DNA of 39,658 nt from a virus, in IMG/VR virus record IMGVR_UViG_3300027721_000033, positions 1 to 39,658 of that record; one strand, given 5' to 3'. The translations under genes and the position numbers were made by a program. This document shows positions 1,261 through 28,338 of the stretch, one piece after another; the first letter of the stretch is position 1, and each line of letters opens with the position of its first letter. The notes beneath the pieces are model-generated. The model saw nothing but the letters and a program-made list of their open reading frames with translations, did no database searches and was not told the DNA's origin.

Positions 1261-2094
1261 ATGAGCTCGACCGATAACGACCGTGTCATCGCGGCCTACT
1301 TCACCGATTTACGCGGTAACGTGTTCATTCCCCAGAAGGAAGAGCAGGAACTCGTCAAGAGCTACCGTACCTGCCCCTCGTGCCGTGCGTCATACGCCCT
1401 TGGGTCTTCAGCCACGCATTGCGCCAAGTGCAAGGCTCCTCGCAACTTTAAGGCCCGTGACCGTCTCATCTCCGGCGCTCTTCGTTTCGTCGTGAAGGTC
1501 GCCAAAGAGTACGCCTACCGTACGAAGGGGCCCAACTTCGACAACGACGTTCTTACTACTCTCATCTCCGCCGGTAACATCGGACTGCTTGTCGCCGCGG
1601 ATCGTTTTGACTCCTCCCGAAACACCAAGTTTTTGACGTACGCCGCTTGGTGGGTCCGAGAGAAGATTCTGGAAGAGCTCGACAGTCAGGGGATCATTCG
1701 TGTCCCAGCGCACAAGCAGAAGGCCCTGCGCGCTCAGCGAAAGCACGGTAGTGGGACGGACGTTGAAGCTCCTCATGTGACGCTGGACACCGTGGAGTCC
1801 ATCGACGCGGCTGGGCACAGCGACGATGTCCTTGAGCGGGACTTCGTGAACACATACGGCTTTACACTTCTGCGGCAGGCCCTGGATGAGCTCGCCCTAC
1901 GGGAGCGAGACAAGTACATCGTGCTGGCGTACTTCGGAGCACGGGAGGATCCTAAGAACCTCCGACAAATTTCGAACCGCTTGGACCTATCCTCTGAGCG
2001 GGTACGGCAGATCAAGAAAAATACGATGGCGCAGTTGAAAATGTACCTGGTGGCCAATCACGTATCAGCCACCAGGGACGTTTTCGCGGAGTAG
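1261..2094 (+). CDS. Phage sigma-70-family factor with zinc-ribbon insert
   Basis: 277 aa. Expected role: directs RNA polymerase to phage promoters. Region 2 is clear: ARDRLISGALRFVVKVAKEY near 65-84, then GNIGLLVAADRFD and KFLTYAAWWVREKI (the usual sigma region 2.3-2.4 pattern with the WW pair). A region-3-like IRVPAHKQ follows. Region 4 ends with ISNRLDLSSERVRQIKK, a standard -35-reading helix-turn-helix. The odd part is a CxxC-x12-CxxC zinc ribbon (C38, C41, C54, C57) placed between the region 1.2-like segment and region 2. Cellular group 1-3 sigma factors normally lack this. The same genome encodes RNAP beta/beta-prime genes, so this is the natural partner of that enzyme, although it could instead redirect host RNAP. 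It is the only rightward gene in the early block and converges on the ParB-like gene with no gap. Confidence 0.9.
   Translation: MSSTDNDRVIAAYFTDLRGNVFIPQKEEQELVKSYRTCPSCRASYALGSSATHCAKCKAPRNFKARDRLISGALRFVVKVAKEYAYRTKGPNFDNDVLTTLISAGNIGLLVAADRFDSSRNTKFLTYAAWWVREKILEELDSQGIIRVPAHKQKALRAQRKHGSGTDVEAPHVTLDTVESIDAAGHSDDVLERDFVNTYGFTLLRQALDELALRERDKYIVLAYFGAREDPKNLRQISNRLDLSSERVRQIKKNTMAQLKMYLVANHVSATRDVFAE
2046..2080 (+). terminator. Hairpin inside 3' end of the sigma gene
   Basis: A perfect 9-bp inverted repeat lies in the last codons of the sigma gene: CCTGGTGGC (2046-2054) and GCCACCAGG (2068-2076), with a 13-nt loop. GACGTTTTC follows. The sigma and ParB-like genes converge with abutting stop codons (2092-2094 and 2095-2097), leaving no intergenic space, so a terminator has to sit within coding sequence. 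The short T-run makes it a weak intrinsic terminator; it might act in both directions. Confidence 0.5.
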
Positions 2095-3051
2095 CTACTT
2101 CAGCCGCAGGTCAGCCGCGAGGGTGATCCCCTTGAGGATCAGCCGGTACTCCTCCCGCTTCTTCGCGGTGTCGGCGTTGACCTCTTTTCGCTTGTAGCTG
2201 ACCATCAGCTCGCGGATGTCATCCTTCTTGAGAGGGTGGAATTCGGCGTCGACGTAGTACTCGATGGCCTTCTCCGACGGAGCGGGTTTCGCCGCCTTCT
2301 TCTTCTTGGGCTTGGCCTCCCCGTCCTCCTCTTCCTCTTCTTCCTCCGCCGCGGCCTCGGTGGTTCCGAGGATGTGGGCGATCTTTGCCTCCATCGCCGC
2401 GACCGTCAGATCGCTCGCTTCGAACACCAGGTCGTCGATGGCCTTGGTGTTGGGCAGGAGGCGGCACAGCGCCCGTGCCTGCGTGAACGACAGCTCTCCG
2501 TCGCGCAGGGCGCTGAGAGCGGACTCCGGCAGTTCCAGCAGAGCGAGGTACTGCGAGACGTAGCCCGGCGCCATGCCGATGGCCTCCGCCACCTGCTGCT
2601 GCTCGAGCCCGGTGTTCTTGATGAGCTTCGCGAACGCCTTGGCCTTGTCCAACGGGGCCATGTCCTTGCGCTGGATGTTCTCGATGAGCGCCAGCTTGAT
2701 GCGACGGTTCACGTCAGCGTCGACGATCATCGCGGGGATGGTCGCCAACTCCAAGCTGCGTACCGCGGTGAGGCGTCGGTGTCCGGCGACGACGGTGTAC
2801 TTCCCCGGCGTCTCTGACATGGTGACGACGATGGGCTCCACGAGCCCTTCAGCCTTGATGCTCTTGGCGAGCTCTTCGATTTCCGGAAGCTCCCCGCTGC
2901 GGATGTTGTCGCCCGCCTTGGTGACGATGTCCTTGACGGGCAGCTCCACGAAGCGATTGGTGGCCAGCGGGGAAGCCGCCTTCGGTGCTACGGCGGCGAT
3001 GACGGCTTCGGGGGTCTCTTCAGATGACACGGGTGTCTCGGCGGTAGCCAT
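2095..3051 (-). CDS. ParB/Srx-domain DNA-binding protein with KorB-type HTH
   Basis: 318 aa. The N-terminal ~30 residues are low-complexity. The ParB/Srx fold covers about 33-130 and shows the box II motif GHRR (90-93) and the ENIQR motif (124-128), which in ParB proteins form the CTP/partner-binding patches. A helix-turn-helix follows (about 148-170, QQVAEAIGMAPGYVSQYLAL). The C-terminal third has a long acidic run (EEEEEEED), a lysine-rich run and a final domain of unknown type. The start is fixed by a strong GGAGGAG about 8 nt upstream. It is last in a leftward operon. No ParA is visible, so the role may be transcription control, replication or nuclease-type function rather than plasmid-like partition. 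Confidence 0.85.
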   Translation of the reverse strand: MATAETPVSSEETPEAVIAAVAPKAASPLATNRFVELPVKDIVTKAGDNIRSGELPEIEELAKSIKAEGLVEPIVVTMSETPGKYTVVAGHRRLTAVRSLELATIPAMIVDADVNRRIKLALIENIQRKDMAPLDKAKAFAKLIKNTGLEQQQVAEAIGMAPGYVSQYLALLELPESALSALRDGELSFTQARALCRLLPNTKAIDDLVFEASDLTVAAMEAKIAHILGTTEAAAEEEEEEEDGEAKPKKKKAAKPAPSEKAIEYYVDAEFHPLKKDDIRELMVSYKRKEVNADTAKKREEYRLILKGITLAADLRLK

Positions 3052-7407: not shown

Positions 7408-9138
7408 ATGTCTGACTCAGTCCCCAACGTTGATGCGATGTCGGCCTTTGATAGGGCCGCGTCGCATCCGAACCCGGCGTTCGACTTCCTCACGGGATTC
7501 GTTCCCCGCAAGCTCAAAGATCTCTTCAAATGGTGCGAATATTTACTCTACAACAGCGCGCACGTCTACGCGGCGCTTCGGAAGTTTGGTGAGCTGGTCG
7601 TCACCGACATTGAGTACAGCACCTCGAATGAAGCGCTCCGTCGTAACTACCGACGGCTCTTTGAGAAGACGCTAAAGATCAAAGGTGCGCTGTTGATGGC
7701 GTCTCTCGACAAGCACGTCTATGGGAACCATTTCACTTCCATCTACAAGCCCTTCGTGCGCAGCCTCAAGTGCCCTGGGTGTCAGCAGCTTACGTCGATC
7801 AATCACGTCGACTACAAGTTCGACCTGAAGAAGCTGTCGTTCACGTACTACTGTCTCAAGTGCCGCAAGCACGTCCAGGGTGCGGTTGTTGACCGAAAGA
7901 TCCTGGCGGCCAGTAAGGTCCACATCATCCGCTGGGACCCGAAGCTGATGGACATCGACTACAACCCGATCACGGGGCAGTCGGTGTACTACTACAACAT
8001 CCCGCAGGACATCAAAGACCAGGTGAAGTCGGGGTCGAAGCATCTCATCAACTCCATGCCGATGGAGTTCCTCGAGAACATCCGCGACAACAAGACGTTC
8101 CGCTTTGAGAAGGACGCCCTCTTCCACATCAAGGTCGCGAGCCCGTCGGGCATCGACCAGCAGTGGGGCTTCCCTCCTCTCGCCTCGACCATCAAGCTGT
8201 TCCTCTACACCTTGGTGCTCCGCAAGGCGAACGAGGCCATCGCGCTCGAGCACGTTGTGCCTATGCGCATCCTGCACCCGGCTCAGAACGGCCAGCAGGA
8301 CTTCACGCAGATGATTTCTCTCGCCCGCTGGCAGGACGAGATGAAGCAGAACATCCGGCGTTGGCGCCGCGATCCGCTGCACATCATGATGGCGCCTGTT
8401 GCCTTGGGCGTCTCCAACCTGGGCGGCGACGGCCGTGCGATGCTCACCATCGGCGAGCTCCAAGAGGCTGAGAAGAGCATCATGGCGGCGCTCGGCATTC
8501 CGCAGGAGTTCCTGTACGGCGGCCTCACCAAGGCGGGCATGGAAGCCACGCTTCGCCTGATTCAGAACCAGACGCAGGGTCACGCAGATGACATGAACGA
8601 CCTGCTCCAGTGGTACTCCGATCAGATGGCTCGGTTCCTGGGCTGGGAGAAGATCGAAGCGAAGCTCACTCCGCTGAAGATGGTGGACGACACCGAGTCC
8701 AAGCAGATGCTCATCAACATGGCGACGGGGCAGACGGGGCAGCAGTTCGTTTCCATGACGACCGTCTGTGAGCGGCTCGACATCGACCTCGATGAAGAGC
8801 GCGAGAAGCGGCTTCAGGAAACGCTGGACGAAGCCCGCCACCAGCAACGCGTACAGCGCGAGGTACAGGCGCTCCAGAACAACCTGGCGCAGCAGGTCCA
8901 GCAGCAGGCGCAGGCATCGACGGGGCTCAACTACGACCAGCAGGCGGTCATCGCGCAGGCCGACCAGCTCGTGCAGCAGCTCATGGGGCTGGACCCCGGG
9001 TCACGTCGGTCACAGATGCATAGCCTCCAGGCCGAAGACGCGGTCATGTATGCGGTCGTGGTCCAGCGGCTCGAGGATATGCAGAACCAACAGGGCGCTC
9101 AAGCGAAGGCTCAGGCGGGCGCTCAGCCCCCGATGTAA
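7408..9138 (+). CDS. Portal protein with zinc-ribbon insert
   Basis: 576 aa. Forms the dodecameric gate at the capsid vertex through which DNA is packaged and ejected. Portal features: a conserved clip/stem/wing-type core, the late GIPQEFLYGG segment and the helical region rich in Asn/Gln after it, and a Gln-rich C-terminal tail (about 475-576) typical of portal crown regions. The unusual part is a CPGC...CLKC zinc knuckle (C122, C125, C149, C152) inside the N-terminal half. The start has GAGGA about 9 nt upstream and follows a candidate phage promoter. It is the first gene of the rightward morphogenesis region. Family assignment is by pattern; the length fits portals. Confidence 0.75.
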   Translation: MSDSVPNVDAMSAFDRAASHPNPAFDFLTGFVPRKLKDLFKWCEYLLYNSAHVYAALRKFGELVVTDIEYSTSNEALRRNYRRLFEKTLKIKGALLMASLDKHVYGNHFTSIYKPFVRSLKCPGCQQLTSINHVDYKFDLKKLSFTYYCLKCRKHVQGAVVDRKILAASKVHIIRWDPKLMDIDYNPITGQSVYYYNIPQDIKDQVKSGSKHLINSMPMEFLENIRDNKTFRFEKDALFHIKVASPSGIDQQWGFPPLASTIKLFLYTLVLRKANEAIALEHVVPMRILHPAQNGQQDFTQMISLARWQDEMKQNIRRWRRDPLHIMMAPVALGVSNLGGDGRAMLTIGELQEAEKSIMAALGIPQEFLYGGLTKAGMEATLRLIQNQTQGHADDMNDLLQWYSDQMARFLGWEKIEAKLTPLKMVDDTESKQMLINMATGQTGQQFVSMTTVCERLDIDLDEEREKRLQETLDEARHQQRVQREVQALQNNLAQQVQQQAQASTGLNYDQQAVIAQADQLVQQLMGLDPGSRRSQMHSLQAEDAVMYAVVVQRLEDMQNQQGAQAKAQAGAQPPM

Positions 9139-9753: not shown

Positions 9754-10536
9754 TCAAGCAGGTGTCTCAGGCGCTTTCTCGAGCGCGGTCAAAGGTTGAA
9801 GGCTACCCTCTGGGATGATCACGGCCCCCTGCCGCGGTCCCTGGTGCCCCTTCTTGCGGTTCCTCTTGAACTTGCCACCGGGCCCGTCCTGAGGAACAGC
9901 GATGAGTTCCGACACGGGCGCACGCAACGGCGCATTGGGGCGGACCTTCGCCCGCATGTGTTTCAAGTGGCACCGATCACATTGCCTCTTTCGCGCGTGC
10001 GCTCCGAACTTCAGTACGCTCTGTGCGATCAGTCCCGCGTTAACAACGACAGGGCCTTCTCCGCAGTGGCATACGATTTGGTAGACCGGCGCCACTGGAA
10101 GCAGCTCGCCGGTTTCCACTTGACTGAGAATTTGCTTCAGCTTCTCAGGATGACTCCACCCCGGGATGTACTCGTACGGGCGCTTGCGAAGAACCATCAA
10201 GCACTCGCACAACTTGTAGTCGCTGCTGAAATGAAACATCCGCTCCTTGGAGAGCGGTTCCTGCGGCTTGTTGCAGAAGTGGCAACGCGCCTTGGTGTTG
10301 GTCAGCGTGGCTGCGATGCGGGCGATCCTCGGCAACTGGTTCGCCACCATCCCCTCGCTCATCGCATCCCACCGTTTTCGGTCGTCAACTTCACAGACGA
10401 GCGAAGCGCGGAGGATTTTGTCCGGTGGAATCTCTCGGACGTCGATGAGGAACGATGCCTCCTCCTTGTGGATCGGAGGCGCCGCTCGTTTTACGACCTT
10501 CTTTTTCTTCGTCTTCCCCGCTACTTTGTTGGCCAT
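9754..10536 (-). CDS. Cys-rich protein divergent from RNAP gene
   Basis: 260 aa. Basic N-terminus (KTKKKKVVKR), then several Cys pairs: CHFC, CEC, CHCGEG and CDRCHLKH, enough for two zinc sites. The C-terminal ~60 residues are basic and Gly/Pro-rich. The gene is the only leftward one in the morphogenesis block and shares an 84-bp control region with the RNAP gene. GAGGGGA precedes the ATG. A zinc-dependent nucleic-acid-binding or regulatory role is plausible from composition and position, but no family is recognised. Confidence 0.65.
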   Translation of the reverse strand: MANKVAGKTKKKKVVKRAAPPIHKEEASFLIDVREIPPDKILRASLVCEVDDRKRWDAMSEGMVANQLPRIARIAATLTNTKARCHFCNKPQEPLSKERMFHFSSDYKLCECLMVLRKRPYEYIPGWSHPEKLKQILSQVETGELLPVAPVYQIVCHCGEGPVVVNAGLIAQSVLKFGAHARKRQCDRCHLKHMRAKVRPNAPLRAPVSELIAVPQDGPGGKFKRNRKKGHQGPRQGAVIIPEGSLQPLTALEKAPETPA

Positions 10537-10620: not shown

Positions 10621-13600
10621 ATGCAGCTCACGCCTGTGATGACCGACCCCGAGTCGCGGCGGATTCAAATCCGCTCGAAAGCGCTTGATGCGCTGCGTAC
10701 AGCTTTTCCCCTTCCACTTCGGGACAAGAAAATCGAGGTCGTTGATCTCAAGGTGCACGAGAGGGACTTCGGTCCGCACGATCAGAAGAGCGCTTTGCTC
10801 AGCGGTGGGTCTCTTTTTGAGCCTGTGAAGGGGACGGTCATCCTCCGGGGGGCCGACGGGAAGGAGCTCGAGCGGGTAAAGAACTTCACTCTGCTTAACC
10901 TGCCCTACTTCACGGGGCGGCACACCTTCATCTTGGACGGCAACGAGTACAACGTCTCTAACCAACTCCGTCTGAAGCCGGGCGTATACACCCGTCGCCG
11001 CGGCAACGAAGATCTGGAGGCCGCCTTCAACTTGTCGAAGGGGTCCAACTTCCGGCTGTCGATGGATCCGACGCAGGGGCATCCGTACATCGAGTACGGC
11101 ACGACGTCCATTCCACTTTACTCAGTACTCCGGAAGCTGGGAGTACCACACACGGACATTTCTTCGCACTGGGGCTCCGACGTTGCGAAGCAGAATGAGT
11201 CTGCGTTTGAAGGGAAGCACGACAAGAATCTGTCGAAGCTCTACGAGAAGCTGGTGCACCCTTCGAAGCGGATGGCAAAGGACCCGGAGTCGCAGCTCGC
11301 TGCCATCAGGACAGCCTACGCCGCTACGGCGATGGACCCTGAGGTTACCAAGGAGACACTGGGCCACGAGTTCTCCAGCGTCACTCCGCAGTCTCTCTTG
11401 GTGGCGTCGAAGCGCCTCCTCAGCGTCTACAAGAACAACGAGGACACTGACGACCGAGACGCTCTACGGTTCAAGACGTACCACTCGGTCGACGACTTCA
11501 TCAAAGAGCGCATCACCCTGGATGCTCGGGCGCTCGCCAGTAAGGTGAAGGGGAGGGCCACGCACAAGACGGAACTCCGGACCATTCTTCCGCCTTCTCC
11601 TTTTTCCGCGGGCATTCGAAGCTTCCTCACAGGATCGCAGCTGAGCTCGATCCCAACGCACATCAACCCGATGGAGGCCATTGACCACGCGGTGCGGGTG
11701 ACCTCCTTGGGCGAGGGTGGCATCGCCAACGAGCGTGCAATCCCTGGCGAGGCTCGGGCGATTCACTCGAGCCACCTTGGTATCCTTGATCCTGTGCGAA
11801 CGTCCGAGACGTTCCGCGCCGGTATCGACATCCGTACTTCGATGTTCGCGCACCGGGACCCCAAGGGGAACCTGTACTCCATGGTGCGGGACGTCAAGAC
11901 CGGTAAGTCGGAGCTTCTGTCCGCAGCGCGGATGAGTCGGGCAGTCGTCGCCTTCCCGAGGCAGAAGCACTTTGGGGTCGTCGCGGTCATGAAGTACGGG
12001 AAGATGGAGCGCGTTCCATGGTCGGAGGTTACGCACGAGATCAGTGATGCTTCAGACTTGTACTCTCCCGCCACGAACCTCGTTCCCTTTTTGGAGTCCG
12101 TGCAGGGGAACCGCGGCATCATGGGAGGCAAGTCGATGACGCAGGCGCTCCCGCTCGTGCACCGAGAAGCACCCCTAGTGCAGTCGGGTGTCGCTGATGC
12201 GACGGGCAAGGTCTTCTCGAGTTGGGAGAAGGCACTCGCGATGCTGGAGCTCCCGTCGTCTCCCGTCGCAGGCAAGGTTGTGAAGGTCGACGGGCAGTAC
12301 ATCTACATCGACCCTACTGGGAAGAAGCACGCAGAAGACTTTGGGATTGAGAAGAATTCGTTCGAGAAGCGTGGCGGCGCCGTCAAACGACAGAAGACCA
12401 TCAACGGCCTGCTCATGAAGATCGAGCTCGAGCCTGGTGATGTACGCACGGGGACGAACGACAAGGGCGAAAAGTGGGAGAAGAAGATGTACGTGGCGTA
12501 CGGCCACATCCCCAAGACCGTTGGCGATGATGGCGAAACCGTCGACATCTACCTGAAGGAAGAGGGCACGTTCGACAACGTCTACATCGTGCATCAGCGG
12601 AAGAAGGACGGCTCGCACGACGAAGACAAGTGCATGGTGGGCTTCGACTCCAAGGACGCCGCGAAGGACGCCTACGAGAAGCACGGTCCACCCTGGGGCT
12701 ACGGTTCGTTGACCGAGTACACCTGGGACGAGTTCAAGGACGACTACCTCTCAGAGCGCGGTCGAGAGAAGGCGGCGGCGGAGAAGGACCTCCTCCGCAT
12801 CCCGTACGAGGACAACTTCCCCTTCGCTTCGAAGACATACCTTCACCACGACCTACTCGTGAAGCCTGGCGACCACGTTGACGCGAACCAGCGCCTAGCT
12901 GATTCGAACTTCACTCGTGACGGTGCCTTTGCTCTGGGGCGGAACATGACCATCGGGTACGTGCCCTACTACGGCATGAACTCGAACGACGCCGTCGTCA
13001 TCTCGGAAGGGGCCGCGGACAAGCTCACCTCCGAGCACATGTACAAGGAGGTCCTCGAGGTTGAGCGCGATGCAACTCTGGGGCGCGAGATTCATCGGCA
13101 GTACTACGGGCCCAAGTACATGGCGGACCAGTATCGCAAGCTCGACACCAACGGCGTAGTTCGCAAGGGCACGAAGGTGATGCCTCACGACCTGCTCATC
13201 GCGGGCGTGACGCGTGGAAAACTCTCCGCGTCCGACATGCTTTTGTCGAATCTGAAGAAGACACTGGTTCACCCCTATCGCGAGCTCGTTCGGACCTGGG
13301 ACCATGACTTCGAGGGTGAGGTCATGGACGTCCACGTGACCGACAGGCGCGTCGTCGTCACTGTCAGGACCAAGGAACCGATGCGCGTCGGGGACAAGCT
13401 CACGGGGCGTCACGGGAATAAGGGCGTCGTGTCCCTGATCGTACCGAACCACAAGATGCTCCAGGACGAAGCGGGGAAGCCGCTCGACGTTCTCTATACC
13501 TCGGCGGGCGTCGTCTCTCGTATCAACCCCGCGCAGATCCTTGAGACCTGCGTCGCCAAGGTCGCTAAGAAGATGGGGAAGCCCATCGCCGTTGCCAACT

Positions 13601-15432
13601 TCTCCGGTCGCGACAACGTACAGTGGACCAAGGACCTGATGAAGGAGCACGGAGTCAAGGACAAGGAGACGTTGTTCGACCCGGTGTCGGGGAAGAAGAT
13701 TCCCAACATCCTCGTCGGACCGCAGTACGTGCTGCGCTTGTTCAAGACGACAGAGACCAACTTCGCTGCTCGTGGGACCGGGGCCTACGACGTCAACCAG
13801 CAGCCCATCAAAGGCGGGGACGAAGGCGCCAAGGCCGTCGGCAAGATGGAGTTCAACGCGCTGGTGGCGCATAACGCTCGCAACGTGTTGAAAGAGACAG
13901 CGTCGATCAAGAGCCAGAAGAATGATGAGTTCTGGAAGGCCGTACAGCTGGGCTTGCCTCTCCCGCCTTTGAAGGCGTCGTTCGCCTACGACAAGTTCAT
14001 TGGCATGCTTCACGGCGCTGGGGTGAAGGTGGACACTCGAGGAAGCCTCAGCACGCTCATGCCGCTGACGGACAACGACATCACGCGAATGTCCGCCGGC
14101 GCCGTGCAGAATGAGAAACTGGTCCGTGCGAAGGACCTGGCTCCGGAACGCGGGGGCTTGTTCGACCCCGCTGTTACCGGTGGTCCCGACGGGACGCGGT
14201 GGAGCCACATTGAGCTCGCGGAGCCGATGGTGAATCCCATTTTCGCTGAACCAGCTCGTCGTCTGCTTGGTATGGCATCAAAGGACTTTGATGCTTACCG
14301 ATTCCAGTCAGGAGGGTCAGCGCTGAAGCAGCGTCTCAACGGGATCGACGTAAAGGCCCGCTTGAAAGAGGTTCGGGCGTCCATCAAGAGTCTGAACGGG
14401 GTGAAGCTCGATGACGCCGTGAAGCAGCTCAAGTTCCTCGAGGCCCTCGACAAGCAGAACCTCCGACCTGGTGATGCCTACGTGTTGTCGAAGATGCCTG
14501 TTCTCCCGCCCATCATGCGGCCCATACTCGCGGGGAAGAGTGGTTCAGAGCTCGTGGTCGGAGACTCCAACTACCTCTATCAGAGCCTCATGCTGCACAA
14601 TCGGTCCCTCCAGACACAGGTCGACAAGCCGGTGCTCCCGCCTGATGAGCATTCCAAGTTGCGCCAGAACTTGTTCCTCGCCGTCGGTGCTGCGGTCGGC
14701 ACGCACGAGTCCGACAACCCCAAGCTCCAGAAGCGAAATGTGAAGGGCCTGCTCGAGCACCTCACCGGCAAGACGACGCCCAAGAGCAGCTTTTTCCAGA
14801 AAAAGATCATGAAGCGTCAGCAGGACATCTCTGGCCGCGGAACCATCGCCCCCGACGGTTCGCTGGGCATGGACGAAATCGGTCTCCCCGAAGACATGCT
14901 CTGGGGCATGTACGGGAAGTTCATCATCGGGCGCTTGATCCGTCGAGGCTTCAACGCTGTTCGCGCCAAGGAGATGCTGGACGAGAAGCACCCGGCAGCT
15001 CGAGACGCCATGATGGCGGAGCTCAAAGAACGTCCAGTGATGGTGAACCGCGCGCCGACGCTCCACCGTTACGGCTTCGTCGGAGCCAACCCTGTCCCCG
15101 TCGCAGGCAAAACCATCCGTGTGAATCCGTTCATCGAACAGGGCATGAACGCGGACTACGACGGTGACACGTTCCAGATCCACGTCCCTATTCTTCCCGC
15201 CGCCGTCGCGGAGGTGAAGGGAATGACCCTCTCCAACCTGCTCTTTTCGGACCGCGAGCAAAACAGCCTGATGGTCGCTCCCCGCATGGAAGCTATGCTA
15301 GGCGTGCACCTGGCTACGAAAGCCGAAGGGTCCGTAAACGGGCAGACGCACAAGTTCAAAACCAAAGCCGATGCCATGGCCGCGTACAAGCGCGGCGAAA
15401 TCGGGCTGCATACCAAAGTTGAGGTGGGCTGA
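10621..15432 (+). CDS. RNA polymerase beta fused to N-terminal half of beta-prime, with inserted pyrophosphatase-like domain
   Basis: 1603 aa from ATG 10621; the frame stays open upstream to 9796, but that part is antisense to the Cys-rich gene. Beta landmarks: REAPLVQSG near 513-521, LGRNMTIGYVPYYGMNSNDA near 776-795, and GDKLTGRHGNKG (924-935) followed by GVVSRINPAQILET. Beta ends near 1165 and beta-prime begins: ERGGLFDP, WSHIELAEP, PVLPPIMRP, NRAPTLHRYGF, then the catalytic NADYDGD (1510-1516) whose three aspartates hold Mg2+. The product stops at a point matching about residue 550 of E. coli beta-prime; the rest is the gene at 17033. The N-terminal beta-prime zinc site (four Cys in E. 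coli) is absent: FDP runs almost directly into the HIEL segment. Residues about 595-700 form an insert with YGHIPKTVGDDGETVDIYL and DEDKCMVGFDS, resembling phage inorganic-pyrophosphatase domains. Role: phage transcription. Confidence 0.93.
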   Translation: MQLTPVMTDPESRRIQIRSKALDALRTAFPLPLRDKKIEVVDLKVHERDFGPHDQKSALLSGGSLFEPVKGTVILRGADGKELERVKNFTLLNLPYFTGRHTFILDGNEYNVSNQLRLKPGVYTRRRGNEDLEAAFNLSKGSNFRLSMDPTQGHPYIEYGTTSIPLYSVLRKLGVPHTDISSHWGSDVAKQNESAFEGKHDKNLSKLYEKLVHPSKRMAKDPESQLAAIRTAYAATAMDPEVTKETLGHEFSSVTPQSLLVASKRLLSVYKNNEDTDDRDALRFKTYHSVDDFIKERITLDARALASKVKGRATHKTELRTILPPSPFSAGIRSFLTGSQLSSIPTHINPMEAIDHAVRVTSLGEGGIANERAIPGEARAIHSSHLGILDPVRTSETFRAGIDIRTSMFAHRDPKGNLYSMVRDVKTGKSELLSAARMSRAVVAFPRQKHFGVVAVMKYGKMERVPWSEVTHEISDASDLYSPATNLVPFLESVQGNRGIMGGKSMTQALPLVHREAPLVQSGVADATGKVFSSWEKALAMLELPSSPVAGKVVKVDGQYIYIDPTGKKHAEDFGIEKNSFEKRGGAVKRQKTINGLLMKIELEPGDVRTGTNDKGEKWEKKMYVAYGHIPKTVGDDGETVDIYLKEEGTFDNVYIVHQRKKDGSHDEDKCMVGFDSKDAAKDAYEKHGPPWGYGSLTEYTWDEFKDDYLSERGREKAAAEKDLLRIPYEDNFPFASKTYLHHDLLVKPGDHVDANQRLADSNFTRDGAFALGRNMTIGYVPYYGMNSNDAVVISEGAADKLTSEHMYKEVLEVERDATLGREIHRQYYGPKYMADQYRKLDTNGVVRKGTKVMPHDLLIAGVTRGKLSASDMLLSNLKKTLVHPYRELVRTWDHDFEGEVMDVHVTDRRVVVTVRTKEPMRVGDKLTGRHGNKGVVSLIVPNHKMLQDEAGKPLDVLYTSAGVVSRINPAQILETCVAKVAKKMGKPIAVANFSGRDNVQWTKDLMKEHGVKDKETLFDPVSGKKIPNILVGPQYVLRLFKTTETNFAARGTGAYDVNQQPIKGGDEGAKAVGKMEFNALVAHNARNVLKETASIKSQKNDEFWKAVQLGLPLPPLKASFAYDKFIGMLHGAGVKVDTRGSLSTLMPLTDNDITRMSAGAVQNEKLVRAKDLAPERGGLFDPAVTGGPDGTRWSHIELAEPMVNPIFAEPARRLLGMASKDFDAYRFQSGGSALKQRLNGIDVKARLKEVRASIKSLNGVKLDDAVKQLKFLEALDKQNLRPGDAYVLSKMPVLPPIMRPILAGKSGSELVVGDSNYLYQSLMLHNRSLQTQVDKPVLPPDEHSKLRQNLFLAVGAAVGTHESDNPKLQKRNVKGLLEHLTGKTTPKSSFFQKKIMKRQQDISGRGTIAPDGSLGMDEIGLPEDMLWGMYGKFIIGRLIRRGFNAVRAKEMLDEKHPAARDAMMAELKERPVMVNRAPTLHRYGFVGANPVPVAGKTIRVNPFIEQGMNADYDGDTFQIHVPILPAAVAEVKGMTLSNLLFSDREQNSLMVAPRMEAMLGVHLATKAEGSVNGQTHKFKTKADAMAAYKRGEIGLHTKVEVG

Positions 15433-16040
15433 TGTCTCGTTACAAGATCGCAGTTGACGGCATCGAGGTGCCTCCAGAGCAGGTGCAGTCCCCTGACGCC
15501 CAAGCCACCGAAGCCGCTGGCGCTGTTGTTCCTCTCCCCCAGCCAACCGCTTCGGAGGGCGTTCACCCGCTGGCGGTGTCTCCCGAGGAGGGGCTGTTCG
15601 CAGTTCCTCAGGAGAAGGTCGTCGGCCAGTGCGTGAAGCTGCTCAAGCTCAAGTACACGATGATGATGATGTACATCAACTACGGTGACCGGATCCGGGC
15701 GCACTTCCGGGATGTCATCTACGACCACTTCAAAGAGCACGCCGACGAAGAGCGTCAGGACGCCTACCACCTGACGATGAAGATCACGGCGTTGGGCGGT
15801 GAGCCCACTCCGAAGGTGAGCACCATCCCCGACATCAACGACTTGCACCAGATGTTCATGGTCCTGCTCCAGGCGGAGAAGCAGATCATCCAGGAGCTGC
15901 GAAACCTCTCCCTCATGGCGGGGGAGAATCTGTCGCTCAAGGTCATGCTCGAACAGATGGTCTTCACCGACCAGCAGCATGCAGACGATCTGCGTCGCAT
16001 GATGTTCTGCGAAGGAGGCGGCGGTGGAGCAATTCCTTAA
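15432..16040 (+). CDS. Ferritin-like four-helix protein
   Basis: 202 aa. The first ~65 residues are a low-complexity Pro/Ala/Gln linker. The rest is helical and carries the ferritin-like pattern HFKEHADEERQDAYHL, then LGGEP, then a second helix pair with QAEKQIIQELRNLS and FTDQQHADDLRRM; the E/H residues could bind a di-metal centre as in bacterioferritin or Dps-type folds. The start ATG overlaps the RNAP stop (ATGA), so it is translationally coupled to the polymerase. Whether it stores iron, acts as a peroxidase or only uses the fold structurally is unknown. Finding it between two RNAP pieces is unusual. Confidence 0.7.
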   Translation: MSRYKIAVDGIEVPPEQVQSPDAQATEAAGAVVPLPQPTASEGVHPLAVSPEEGLFAVPQEKVVGQCVKLLKLKYTMMMMYINYGDRIRAHFRDVIYDHFKEHADEERQDAYHLTMKITALGGEPTPKVSTIPDINDLHQMFMVLLQAEKQIIQELRNLSLMAGENLSLKVMLEQMVFTDQQHADDLRRMMFCEGGGGGAIP

Positions 16041-17032: not shown

Positions 17033-18832
17033 ATGGCGCAGACGCTTGGGAAATACCTGGTCAACGACCTGCTGCCCAAGCATCTCCACACGACGGGGGC
17101 GCTGGGGAAGAAAGAGCTCACGCAGAAGCTGCTGGACCTCGCTCGAGAGGACCCTTCTGCCTACGTTGAGATCGTCAGCAGCCTGAAGCGTCTCGGGGAT
17201 GACATCTCCACGCTCGAAGGGGTCTCCGTCGGCATCGATGACATCACGCCGCAGTACAAAGAGCGTAATGCGCTCATCACGGCGACGACCGCGGCTCTGA
17301 AAAGTGCCACTACTTCAGCGGCAAAGGAGAAGGTTCTTCTCGACGCAAAAGTGAAGATGCTGGCGCAGACCAAGCTGCACCCAGGCACGATGACCGCGAT
17401 GGCGATGTCAGGAGCTCGCGGCAACATGGAGCAGCTGGCCAAGACCGTATCCTCTCCGGTCACAGTGACGTCTAGCCAAGGGCGGGCGATGCCCTGGATA
17501 GTTGACCGCTCCTATTCAGAGGGGCTCCACTCCGCGGACTACTGGGCCGCTGGAAACGATGTGCGGCACAACACCGTGCAGGCGGCCATCTCTATCTCTG
17601 AGCCTGGCGACATGCTCAAGATCATGACAAACTCGATGTATCCAATGGTCGTTACCGCCGACGACTGTGGAACACCGAACGGTATAGCGCTCGCCAGCAC
17701 TGATGGGAACATCATTGATAGGTACCTCTCCAGAGATCAGGCGGGTTACCGCCGGAACGACTTGGTGACGAAGGCAGTTGCGTCGGGCCTCCGCAACAAA
17801 GTGAAGACGGTCTATGTCCGCTCGCCGATGACGTGTAAGGCCACGCCAGGCCTCTGCCGCAAGTGTCAAGGTCTTGATGAGCGAGGACGTCCGCACGCAA
17901 TCGGCATCAATGTCGGTGTCCGTGCCGCGCAGTCGATCTCTGAGCCTTTGACCCAGATGGCGTTGAGCGCCAAGCACGGCGGGAAGAGCATCAAGGGGTC
18001 TTCTTCTCAGCTCACTGGAATGCCGGGGGTTCGGCAGCTTCTCGAGGTGCCGCAGAACTTCATCAATAAGGCGGCGCTGGCAGAGCGTACCGGGGTCGTT
18101 ACGAAGATCGTACCCGCGCCCCATGGCGGTACGCATATCTACGTCAATGAGGTACAGCACTACGTTGGGCCGAATTTGAAGCCGCTTGTGCGTGTCCATC
18201 AGAAAGTGGAAGCTGGTGATGTACTCTCAGAAGGAATCCCCAAACCAGATGAGCTCATCCACCACAAAGGTTTTGGCGTTGGACGACAGTACCTCGTGGA
18301 CGCACTTCATGACATCTATGGGCGGGAAGGCGTCAACGTCGACAAGCGGCACTTTGAATTGGTCGCCCGCGCAGACCTCAACCACGTCAAAGTTCTCGAG
18401 CACACAGATGAGCATCCGGAGCTCCTCAAAGGAGAAGTAGTCCCCTACGAGGCGTATCGGAACGCCGCGGAGAAGGGCAGTCGGGATACGCTACTCGCTC
18501 ACGCCGTGGGCGGCGTACTGGGTAAAGAGGTCCTCCACTACACCGCGGGTACGCCTCTTACTCCTTCGATCCTCAACACCCTCAAGACCCACGGGGTCAC
18601 CAGTGTTGGTGTGGCCTCTTCACTTCCGCGCGTCGAGTTCATGATGCGGCCGATGGCGCGAAACCCGCTGCTCCACCCGGACTGGATGGCCCGTCTGGCT
18701 CATCGCTTCTTGAAGGACAGTCTTCTTCAGGGAGCTCGTACCGGCGCAGTGTCAGATCGCCATAGCACTCACCCGGTACCGGCCTACGCTTACGGTTCTG
18801 AATTCGGGATGGGACCGGAAGGCAAATACTAA
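17033..18832 (+). CDS. RNA polymerase beta-prime, C-terminal half
   Basis: 599 aa. It picks up where the fusion protein stops. Landmarks: VSVGIDDIT near 64-72 (E. coli ASVGIDDM), SGARGN near the F-loop, a diverged bridge-helix region around 150-195, and the second beta-prime zinc site C212 (DDCGT), C268, C275, C278 (CKATPGLCRKC). The trigger-loop start SEPLTQMALSAKHGG keeps E304, P305, T307, Q308 and H315 (the active-site His) but is one residue shorter than the E. coli loop and lacks the Met-Arg pair next to it. GRQYLVDALHDIYGREGVNVDKRHFELVAR fragments match the C-terminal clamp (near E. coli [26 protein letters not shown]). It should complete the catalytic core with the beta/beta-prime-N fusion. 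The stop overlaps the next ATG (TAATG). Confidence 0.92.
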   Translation: MAQTLGKYLVNDLLPKHLHTTGALGKKELTQKLLDLAREDPSAYVEIVSSLKRLGDDISTLEGVSVGIDDITPQYKERNALITATTAALKSATTSAAKEKVLLDAKVKMLAQTKLHPGTMTAMAMSGARGNMEQLAKTVSSPVTVTSSQGRAMPWIVDRSYSEGLHSADYWAAGNDVRHNTVQAAISISEPGDMLKIMTNSMYPMVVTADDCGTPNGIALASTDGNIIDRYLSRDQAGYRRNDLVTKAVASGLRNKVKTVYVRSPMTCKATPGLCRKCQGLDERGRPHAIGINVGVRAAQSISEPLTQMALSAKHGGKSIKGSSSQLTGMPGVRQLLEVPQNFINKAALAERTGVVTKIVPAPHGGTHIYVNEVQHYVGPNLKPLVRVHQKVEAGDVLSEGIPKPDELIHHKGFGVGRQYLVDALHDIYGREGVNVDKRHFELVARADLNHVKVLEHTDEHPELLKGEVVPYEAYRNAAEKGSRDTLLAHAVGGVLGKEVLHYTAGTPLTPSILNTLKTHGVTSVGVASSLPRVEFMMRPMARNPLLHPDWMARLAHRFLKDSLLQGARTGAVSDRHSTHPVPAYAYGSEFGMGPEGKY

Positions 18833-25991: not shown

Positions 25992-26381
25992 ATGCACTAC
26001 CCGACTTTCTGGTTCAAACTCCAGGCATTGGAGCGCCTCGAAAAGCTGGCGAGCTCGGACGATCTGTCGGTGTCCGTTGACGCGCAGCAAGCGCTCGCTC
26101 TGGCGTGCGACGACATGTACTCTTCGGTGAAGAAGGCCGGTGCGGTGCTCTCTGCGATCTTCAAGATGCGAGACAGCCACCGCATCACTGGGGAGAAGCT
26201 CGCAGCTTCCCCTGAGGTCACGGCGGACTTTGTTCAAAAGCTCGCCACCGCTGAGTACGTTGATGGCGTTCTCTCCGCGCAGCTTGAGAAATTGTCCGGG
26301 GAAGAGTACGACGCCGCTCGCAAGGTCCAGCTTCTGGGACGAGAGTATGCAGTAAATCTGATGCGAGGTCTCTTTGCGTAA
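25992..26381 (+). CDS. Unknown helical protein before the protease candidate
   Basis: 129 aa, start at ATG 25992 with GAGGG 8 nt upstream. It is nearly all helical (LEKLASSDDL, VKKAGAVLSAIFK, LEKLSGEEYD). No motif is recognised. The stop lies 8 nt inside the next gene, so the pair is translationally coupled, a common link for capsid proteases and their chaperones or assembly partners; that role is inference. Confidence 0.6.
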   Translation: MHYPTFWFKLQALERLEKLASSDDLSVSVDAQQALALACDDMYSSVKKAGAVLSAIFKMRDSHRITGEKLAASPEVTADFVQKLATAEYVDGVLSAQLEKLSGEEYDAARKVQLLGREYAVNLMRGLFA

Positions 26382-28338
26382 GGTCTATGAGCTCGACACG
26401 CACTTCGCCACGGGCGAAGCGACGGTTCAGCCCGTGCTCCTCTGGGGCGCGAATGGTCGACCCTTGCGTGAACGGTTCACCAAGACTGCCAGTGAAGCCT
26501 CGGACTACATCAAAGCCGTTGAGCCGAAGCCTGGGATGAGCGTTGTTCTCGTTCTCGCCCTGGGGGCGTACGAGACGTACGACCTCAACCGGAACGGCGA
26601 TGGATTCAACGAGTTCCCCTTCAAGACCGGGTTCAAACCAACCTGCGGCTGCTGTCAGACCGATGGTGCGTGGGTGACGCAGTCTGAGATCCTTCCGAAC
26701 CACTACAAGTCTTTCGAAGAGCACGGCAAGATTTACCGTCACCACCAGAACAAAGACCCGCTGAAGGCTTGCGGCGACGTGCTCAAGTCGTTCTGGAATC
26801 CGCAGATGCATCGGGTTGAGTTGCTCCTGGGACTCAGGAATGAGCTCGCCCCTGATCTGGCGGAACGGATTGCTTCCGGTGAGTACCCCGCTGTTTCGAT
26901 GGGGTGCCGCATCAAGTACGACGTCTGCACCATCTGCGGACACAAAGCTCCGACGCGGAAGCAGTACTGCGACCATCTGAAATTTGGGATGCGGCAAGTG
27001 ACGCCGAGTGGCTTGCGCGCCGGAGCCCTGAATCCATCTCCCAAGTTCTTCGACATTTCCTTCGTCGTGAAGCCCGCGGATCTCACAGGGTACATGATGA
27101 AGAAGGTCGCGGACGATGGTGCGTACGTCGTACGAACTTCGTCTGAGCTCGGGGAGTACCTCGACGCTATGGAAGAGAAGCGGGCGGCGATCCGGAAGCT
27201 CGCGGACATCGACAAGATTGTTCGGGGCACTCCGGTAGACCACAAGACTTCTCCGATTTCAGAGCAAGAGGCCCGCGGGATCCAACAGTACCGGGACATG
27301 GTGATGCCGGCTGTTCGTGGGATGCCCGACCTGGACGACGGGACCATCAAGCGCCTTGCGAAGTTCCCTGTAGCGCAGGTCCTCTCGACGCTGTCCGCCG
27401 CCGGGGTCATTTTGACCACGCCGGAGTTTGTGAAGATGATCGTCGAGCGTCTGGCCCCCGGAACAAAGGTCCCTGAGTACGCGCTCGATGGCGTCGTAGC
27501 GATGCAGGGGCACATCTTTGATTTGTTCGCGCGACACCCCCAGCTCCTTGACCAGCTGGGTGGTACGGGGATGTTCGACCGCACGACGAAGAACGTGAAC
27601 CCGGAGATTGGGGTCGTAGCGGAGAAGTACCTCGAGAAGCGGTCGACCATTTCAGACTACCTCTCCCGGCAGCTGATCCCGCCAATGTTCCGAGCGGAGG
27701 AGCCGCCTTGGACGGACATGCTTCACGTTCGGGACCCGGCTACCGGGGAGTCATACGAAACGACTCGCGGAGCAGCGCGAGAAGCCCATGATGCAATCGC
27801 CAAGACTGAGCTTGCCCGCCTCATCGGGACGGGGGCTCTCTTGGCGGGCGGAGCTCGCATGGCCGCCGGAGCTTTGCCCTCTGGCCTTCAGCCTCTGGCG
27901 TATGGTGGAGCAGCTTACGCTGGCAACAAGATGCTGCGTCCCGACTACGGACCTCAGTACCTCACAGACGAAGGTTTCCCCATTCCGACGTTGACGGAGA
28001 TGCGGAAAGAGGGGAACGACGCTGCGCTGCCTCTCTTGGGGTCCGCGGCTCTCGTGACGGCGCTGGGGCACGATTACGACTCTCGCCTGCGCCGAGGGCA
28101 CGACGTACATTCTCCCCACGCTCCGCTGCATCGTCGCGTGCTGGATCGTCTCGGGGAGTACGCCTCGGAGAATCCTATGCTAGGAGTCCTGGGAGCTTTG
28201 GGTGTGTACGGCGGGATGAAGAAGTTTTCAGAGTACGCAGAGGACCTCGGGTCGAGGGCAGCGACCGACAGCGTGACATCCCCGGATATCGACATCGACG
28301 AGGTCGTTGAAAAAATCGGCAGCGCGGTACTACGGTAG
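26374..28338 (+). CDS. Candidate prohead (capsid maturation) protease
   Basis: 654 aa from a TTG start at 26374 supported by GAGG 5 nt upstream and by the overlap with the previous gene; the first in-frame ATG is over 50 codons downstream. The first ~240 residues fit a phage head-protease core: KIYRHHQNKDPLKACGDVL (H123/H124 candidate catalytic His) and GEYPAVSMGC (S175 candidate nucleophile). A Cys cluster CGCC and CTICGH...YC (185-199) adds a probable zinc site. The C-terminal 400 residues have no motif; they may be an internal scaffold-like or structural part. Position directly before the scaffold candidate and capsid genes fits. Fold is inferred from spacing of His and Ser; not proven. 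Confidence 0.6.
   Translation: MRKVYELDTHFATGEATVQPVLLWGANGRPLRERFTKTASEASDYIKAVEPKPGMSVVLVLALGAYETYDLNRNGDGFNEFPFKTGFKPTCGCCQTDGAWVTQSEILPNHYKSFEEHGKIYRHHQNKDPLKACGDVLKSFWNPQMHRVELLLGLRNELAPDLAERIASGEYPAVSMGCRIKYDVCTICGHKAPTRKQYCDHLKFGMRQVTPSGLRAGALNPSPKFFDISFVVKPADLTGYMMKKVADDGAYVVRTSSELGEYLDAMEEKRAAIRKLADIDKIVRGTPVDHKTSPISEQEARGIQQYRDMVMPAVRGMPDLDDGTIKRLAKFPVAQVLSTLSAAGVILTTPEFVKMIVERLAPGTKVPEYALDGVVAMQGHIFDLFARHPQLLDQLGGTGMFDRTTKNVNPEIGVVAEKYLEKRSTISDYLSRQLIPPMFRAEEPPWTDMLHVRDPATGESYETTRGAAREAHDAIAKTELARLIGTGALLAGGARMAAGALPSGLQPLAYGGAAYAGNKMLRPDYGPQYLTDEGFPIPTLTEMRKEGNDAALPLLGSAALVTALGHDYDSRLRRGHDVHSPHAPLHRRVLDRLGEYASENPMLGVLGALGVYGGMKKFSEYAEDLGSRAATDSVTSPDIDIDEVVEKIGSAVLR

Follow-up and report, generated by a model that had tools for sequence, protein, structure and literature searches.

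We find that a phage RNA polymerase (RNAP) holds an inorganic pyrophosphatase-type domain (InPase) within its beta subunit. The polymerase is encoded by IMGVR_UViG_3300027721_000033, a virus record of 39,658 bases, the whole of which is called the window here. The InPase domain is known and this kind of RNAP is known; their combination is new. The original prediction had placed a pyrophosphatase-like domain in the middle of beta and had held that no RNAP with such a domain was known. Both points stand: the Pfam check matched PF18823 at E 7.3e-32 with beta sequence aligning on both sides, and an exact-pattern scan of a cellular-genome collection turned up no InPase-bearing cellular RNAP. The further idea that such a tethered domain would favor forward synthesis is conjectural. 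As for function, we think that the domain most likely hydrolyzes pyrophosphate (PPi), that it is a mobile module captured several times, and that the RNAP is possibly packaged, a combined reading to which we give about an even chance.

A multi-subunit RNAP encoded beside head genes

The window's polymerase is a multi-subunit (two-barrel) RNAP, with core domains, motifs, and fold all present. The beta/N-terminal beta' fusion (Table 1) was matched in Pfam by Rpb2_3, Rpb2_6, Rpb1_1, and Rpb1_2 and in NCBIfam by models of beta/beta' fusions (E 4e-100). Both the beta GDKLTGRHGNKG motif, starting at residue 924 of the fusion, and the catalytic NADYDGD of beta', starting at residue 1510, are intact. 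Residues 404-1602, modeled with AlphaFold at a pLDDT of 85, match PDB structures of bacterial beta (E 3e-42). An extension of the reading frame in the 5' direction to TTG 9796 was set aside in favor of ATG 10621, as it overlaps an antisense ORF (9754-10536) and falls outside the RNAP match. IMG/VR contig 3300009169_000014 (187 kb, L003) encodes a product identical to the fused RNAP. In the window's clade, C-terminal beta' has a gene of its own. Outgroup RNAP frames (L013, L078-L096) are mostly ~2020-2190 codons long, and the L013 frame bears beta and beta' domains, including Rpb1_5.

The sigma70-like factor is probably the promoter-recognition partner of this RNAP, and sigma70 region 2 was matched in 12 of 12 related records searched. 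The factor's gene adjoins a ParB gene (2095-3051, minus strand) with ParB_N and HTH_ParB domains. Phage RNAPs usually have no alpha subunit, and the RNA_pol_L domain was found in 0 of 8 phage records of the group, with controls positive in 13 of 14 genomes.

Table 1. Coordinates of the RNAP genes, the inserted domain, and associated features (window positions unless another record is named)
Feature	Coordinates	Strand	Basis and remarks
Sigma70-like factor	1261..2094	+	Pfam Sigma70_r2 and r4; PHROG sigma factor E 1e-30
Portal-protein homolog	7408..9138	+	30% identity to annotated Arash portal over ~550 aa, E 1e-94; weak PHROG portal match
Fused RNAP beta and N-terminal beta' gene	10621..15432	+	1603 aa, ATG 10621; alternative start ATG 10639
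N-terminal linker, EKxxG motif	12361..12381	+	F581-E582-K583-R-G-G; pLDDT low at ~564-583
InPase domain	12382..12741	+	residues 588-707; PF18823 E 7.3e-32
Predicted active-site residues Y627, D637, E639, D642, D667, E668, K670	12499..12630	+	conservation; partial PPase alignments
C-terminal linker, EKxxA motif	12763..12786	+	R715-E716-K-A-A-A; pLDDT low at ~714-723
Ferritin-like gene	15432-16040	+	PF00210 E 9e-11; lies between both RNAP genes; L012 has one too
beta' C-terminal part, separate gene	17033..18832	+	599 aa; Rpb1_5 E 2.6e-20; NCBIfam rpoC E 2.9e-53
Head-maturation-protease-like gene	26374..28338	+	phrog_18299 E 1.5e-9; 38.5% identity to the 707-aa G040 protein, E 5e-45
InPase-bearing head-maturation-protease homolog	L146 / G040 117257-119377	-	homology to the window's protease-like gene

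A pyrophosphatase-type domain inserted at a beta hairpin

Bacterial beta subunits align with the window's RNAP up to about residue 526 and again from about residue 738. The E. coli counterpart of the intervening site is a 13-residue loop (737-749) at the tip of a hairpin, and relatives free of the insert have only ~5-35 residues at this hairpin. Thus, since beta aligns on both sides and is short there in E. coli and in the insert-free relatives, the segment is a real insertion. Residues 588-707 score 110.5 bits with PF18823 against a cut-off of 26.8 and are also matched by ten PHROG families whose phage members bear InPase. Counted from ATG 10621, positions 12403-12720 correspond exactly to residues 595-700, the extent originally proposed; the location was right, and the domain is slightly larger, with a folded core at residues ~583-712 (window 12367-12756). 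The three sequence stretches by which the domain had been recognized, VYIVHQ and DEDKCMVGFDS among them, do occur in the insert, and D637, D642, D667, and E668 lie where they had been placed.

The insert is predicted to adopt the family-I pyrophosphatase fold. In the AlphaFold model of the isolated InPase, the core has a pLDDT of ~87-97, and the top 50 PDB matches returned by Foldseek are all inorganic pyrophosphatases (PPases), with a best E of 8e-4, probability 1.00, and TM 0.42; the Mycobacterium tuberculosis PPase is matched at a probability of 1.00, though at a TM of only 0.42. Structure matches to viral InPases reach a TM of 0.76 with an rmsd of 1.7. The first hit of a profile built from 48 InPases is the C-terminal region of a phage portal chain (9b41, 4e-33), and cellular pyrophosphatases come next. 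Among these 48 domains, which come from many contexts, Y627, D637, D642, D667, E668, and K670 are invariant, and 47 of the domains have E or D at position 639. The predicted catalytic acids are thus kept. From sequence alignment, we take the E. coli PPase equivalents of these residues to be Y55, D65, and D70 and probably D97, D102, and K104, the pairing of D667/E668 being uncertain. Two comparisons count against PPi hydrolysis: the E. coli PPase segment with Y141/K142 has no clear equivalent in InPase, and the match of InPase to PF00719 is weak (E 0.009; 16.3 bits, under the cut-off of 23.5; TM 0.42). Purifying selection acts on the insert as it does on the polymerase, with dN/dS of ~0.02-0.13, like flanking beta, in a comparison in which many synonymous differences are near saturation.

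Repeated capture at one site

Relatives were gathered by an RNAP-alignment scan, from which the best 80 of 418 candidates were kept, and 81 nonredundant RNAPs were compared. Within this set of the best 80 of 418 relatives, InPase lies at the same hairpin in 16 of 81 RNAPs, and every hairpin insert of >100 aa contains an InPase. The other 65 RNAPs are insert-free, which counts against our main reading. Salmonella phage Arash and Vibrio phages D69, D148, and D181 belong to the wider group; the RNAPs of Arash and D69 were aligned and carry no insert.

A tree uniting all RNAP-borne InPases in one clade was rejected (AU p 5.8e-5). On the RNAP tree, a quick tree of phage relatives only that has some long branches, the presence and absence of InPase require at least five changes, among which parsimony cannot separate gain from loss. 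In keeping with separate origins, relative L012 has a divergent InPase, yet its RNAP nests among RNAPs with the window type. InPase has entered the same RNAP hairpin repeatedly, in several lineages, and such independent insertion at one spot suggests usefulness there. Some inserts hold more than InPase: L005 has ~100 residues matching phrog_17560 (E 5e-7) ahead of it, L058 carries a further module behind it, and the ~550-aa insert of L074 has three parts, InPase being joined by an N-terminal module and a P-loop kinase-like domain (AAA_18, E 3e-6, just short of the cut-off).

RNAP genes of the relatives contain other additions as well. By eye, the extra module of L005 looks ParB/Srx-like (DGRHRLAKL). 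Inteins with LAGLIDADG and intein-splicing domains occur in the RNAP genes of L011 and L010; the L011 gene has three large extra segments in a single reading frame of 2842 codons, and L012 has a further large segment near residue 400 in window numbering. In Vibrio phage D181 (L017, 5980-11494), a homing endonuclease gene splits the RNAP gene, and N-terminal beta is a separate CDS.

The same domain in head genes

Outside RNAPs, the InPase nearest to the window's sits in a 707-residue homolog of the head-maturation protease in the 191-kb relative G040. In the InPase tree, this domain is sister to nine RNAP InPases of the window type (support 99/98), and the similarity between the two contexts already starts in the linker, where the protease reads EKTAGKAVKRQ and the RNAP EKRGGAVKRQ. 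The RNAP of the same phage is one long beta-beta' frame of 2135 codons in which the profile match skips the insert columns. A second InPase of G040 (127500-129773) lies in what by eye is a peptidase-like/ART-like/InPase polyvalent protein. Further genes of the same phage group also bear InPases, showing that attachment to RNAP is not required, a point against our main reading, and portal proteins of other phages carry the domain too. In several phages InPase is either in the RNAP or in another gene, but a rule of one InPase per genome was dropped, with two copies in G023 and G040 and none in many genomes. An exact-pattern, nonexhaustive scan of a cellular-genome collection found six InPase loci, 0 of 6 within an RNAP gene, and PF00719 pyrophosphatases were found in 0 of 9 phage records tested. 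Because it also occurs in the head-maturation protease and other phage genes, InPase is a mobile virion-type module and no RNAP-specific invention.

The linkers that flank the insert share a short motif, EKx[AG], with head genes. The 187-kb relative has 26 copies of EKx[AG] in its RNAP/head region versus 6.2 in shuffles (maximum 14 in 200 shuffles), compared with 32 versus 25.3 expected in the remainder. The enriched stretches are 38-63.5 kb of G001 and, in two further genomes, the bins with RNAP or head genes at 0-40 kb of G010 (24 versus 9.4) and 100-120 kb of G040 (18 versus 4.4). The related pattern K-x-[AG]-[AG] reaches 13.7 per 1000 residues at the hairpin of 57 window-clade RNAPs versus 1.55 elsewhere and is found at the hairpin in 0 of 18 outgroup RNAPs. 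We spotted EKx[AG] in the data, and its test used that genome plus two others; noticed and tested partly on the same data, it furnishes a hypothesis and not a demonstration. Immediately upstream of the RNAP, a portal homolog is present in the window, L007, L012, G010, Arash, and D69. Because its linkers carry the motif enriched in head genes, the RNAP is perhaps a packaged virion enzyme processed by the head-maturation protease. Judging from neighborhood and a short motif, the EKx[AG] linkers may be candidate sites for this protease and the RNAP a candidate virion protein.

What the inserted domain may do

The polymerase reaction can run backward, and clearing PPi is normally the job of a separate enzyme. 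In the mechanism that we favor, a family-I-type domain held on two flexible linkers at the tip of the beta hairpin would hydrolyze PPi released by the polymerase, or PPi in the surroundings. With PPi removed, pyrophosphorolysis and product inhibition would be held back while the phage is transcribed. InPase moves among virion-associated genes of this phage group, the RNAP hairpin having captured it several times, and the RNAP may be packaged in the virion and cut at the linkers by the head-maturation protease. Catalysis, the benefit to transcription, packaging, and cleavage are all steps that we infer. That every large hairpin insert contains InPase favors the link to transcription. Hosts normally possess a pyrophosphatase of their own, which speaks against this mechanism, and a literature search for assays of any PF18823 domain returned none, which counts against PPi hydrolysis. 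InPases have been proposed to clear PPi for early replication or transcription, or to attack signaling nucleotides (PMC5512222). A more specific version, in which a packaged RNAP with a built-in pyrophosphatase makes the earliest transcription in a newly infected cell effectively irreversible and has its linkers processed by the head-maturation protease, we put forward only tentatively.

The head-protease and polyvalent contexts favor a different account, in which InPase is cargo: a polyvalent counter-defense domain directed against a host nucleotide or PPi-containing molecule, with the RNAP and the head protease serving as capsid vehicles from which it is freed at EKx[AG] and injected. InPase has already been described as a polyvalent domain that is probably injected (PMC5512222). 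Its occurrence in the head protease, in the peptidase/ADP-ribosyltransferase-like polyvalent protein recognized by eye, and in the portals of other phages fits such delivery, as do the kinase-like module added to the L074 insert and the enrichment of EKx[AG] in head regions and at the hairpin. However, a plain cargo site should hold other polyvalent domains alone, whereas every large hairpin insert has InPase, and cleavage at EKx[AG] is itself putative. We consider delivery of this kind possible but doubtful.

Loss of catalysis seems to us distinctly improbable. The pyrophosphatase fold would then be retained as a structural or binding module, much like the lineage-specific inserts of bacterial beta and beta', which are widespread and for which no enzymatic role is known (PMC11515920, PMC2939025); the absence of the segment that bears two canonical PPase residues would agree with this. 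Yet the active-site acids and lysine are invariant in 48 InPases from many contexts, and even the divergent RNAP inserts of L004, L006, and L012 largely retain the acid pattern, the exception being the D667 position, which the L006/L058/L074 type has lost. Least credible, and in our view very unlikely, is a neutral mobile insertion in a permissive loop with no selected RNAP function, since its patchy presence and the entry of inteins into the RNAP gene of relatives are outweighed by a dN/dS far under 1 and by a single domain type having been captured repeatedly at the same site.

A multi-subunit polymerase with a built-in pyrophosphatase, acquired repeatedly at one site, would offer a natural test of how important local PPi removal is for transcription and, for RNA-synthesis work, a model from nature for tethering a pyrophosphatase. 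The linker motif provides a testable route into virion transcription and head maturation in a widespread phage group.

Comparison with known systems

No report of a pyrophosphatase domain within an RNAP was found in the literature searched, a scope outside which most subscription papers and preprints lay. The window's phage group probably belongs to the mReC phages, Caudovirales with a deep-branching multi-subunit RNAP that are widespread in metagenomes (Weinheimer and Aylward 2020; PMC7481178). As in mReC phages, beta and beta' resemble cellular RNAP closely enough to be recognized by ordinary profiles, but the window's beta is fused to N-terminal beta'; the text of that study mentions neither insertions nor pyrophosphatase. 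The Gp23-type capsid family PF07068 had no match in 9 records, in a search that was positive nowhere and from which absence cannot be inferred.

The domain itself shares its sequence family, predicted fold, and acidic residues with the InPase of polyvalent proteins (PF18823; PMC5512222). That domain is known from polyvalent, virion, and portal proteins, whereas the window's lies inside RNAP beta. With cellular family-I PPases (PF00719), it shares the predicted fold and the active-site stretch YG...DG(D/E)xxD; it differs in being shorter, as seen in partial alignments, and in having no C-terminal segment. For the polyvalent-protein InPase, absence of the strand 1-2 hairpin of cellular PPases has been reported (Iyer et al. 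2017; PMC5512222).

Among RNAP insertions, the closest parallels are the lineage-specific inserts of bacteria, such as BEAN/HABAS (PMC11515920) and E. coli beta-i4, beta-i9, and beta-i11 (PMC2939025). They too are independent domains in beta that were acquired repeatedly, but they are BEAN, HABAS/SBHM, or similar domains, whereas the window's insert belongs to an enzyme family; phages and pyrophosphatase are both unmentioned in the recent survey of RNAP inserts (PMC11515920). Finally, the virion RNAP of Thermus phage P23-45 (PMC10770324) is likewise homologous to cellular RNAPs and part of an unusual fusion. There, the partner is the tape measure protein, whereas the window's RNAP holds an enzyme domain inserted within it.
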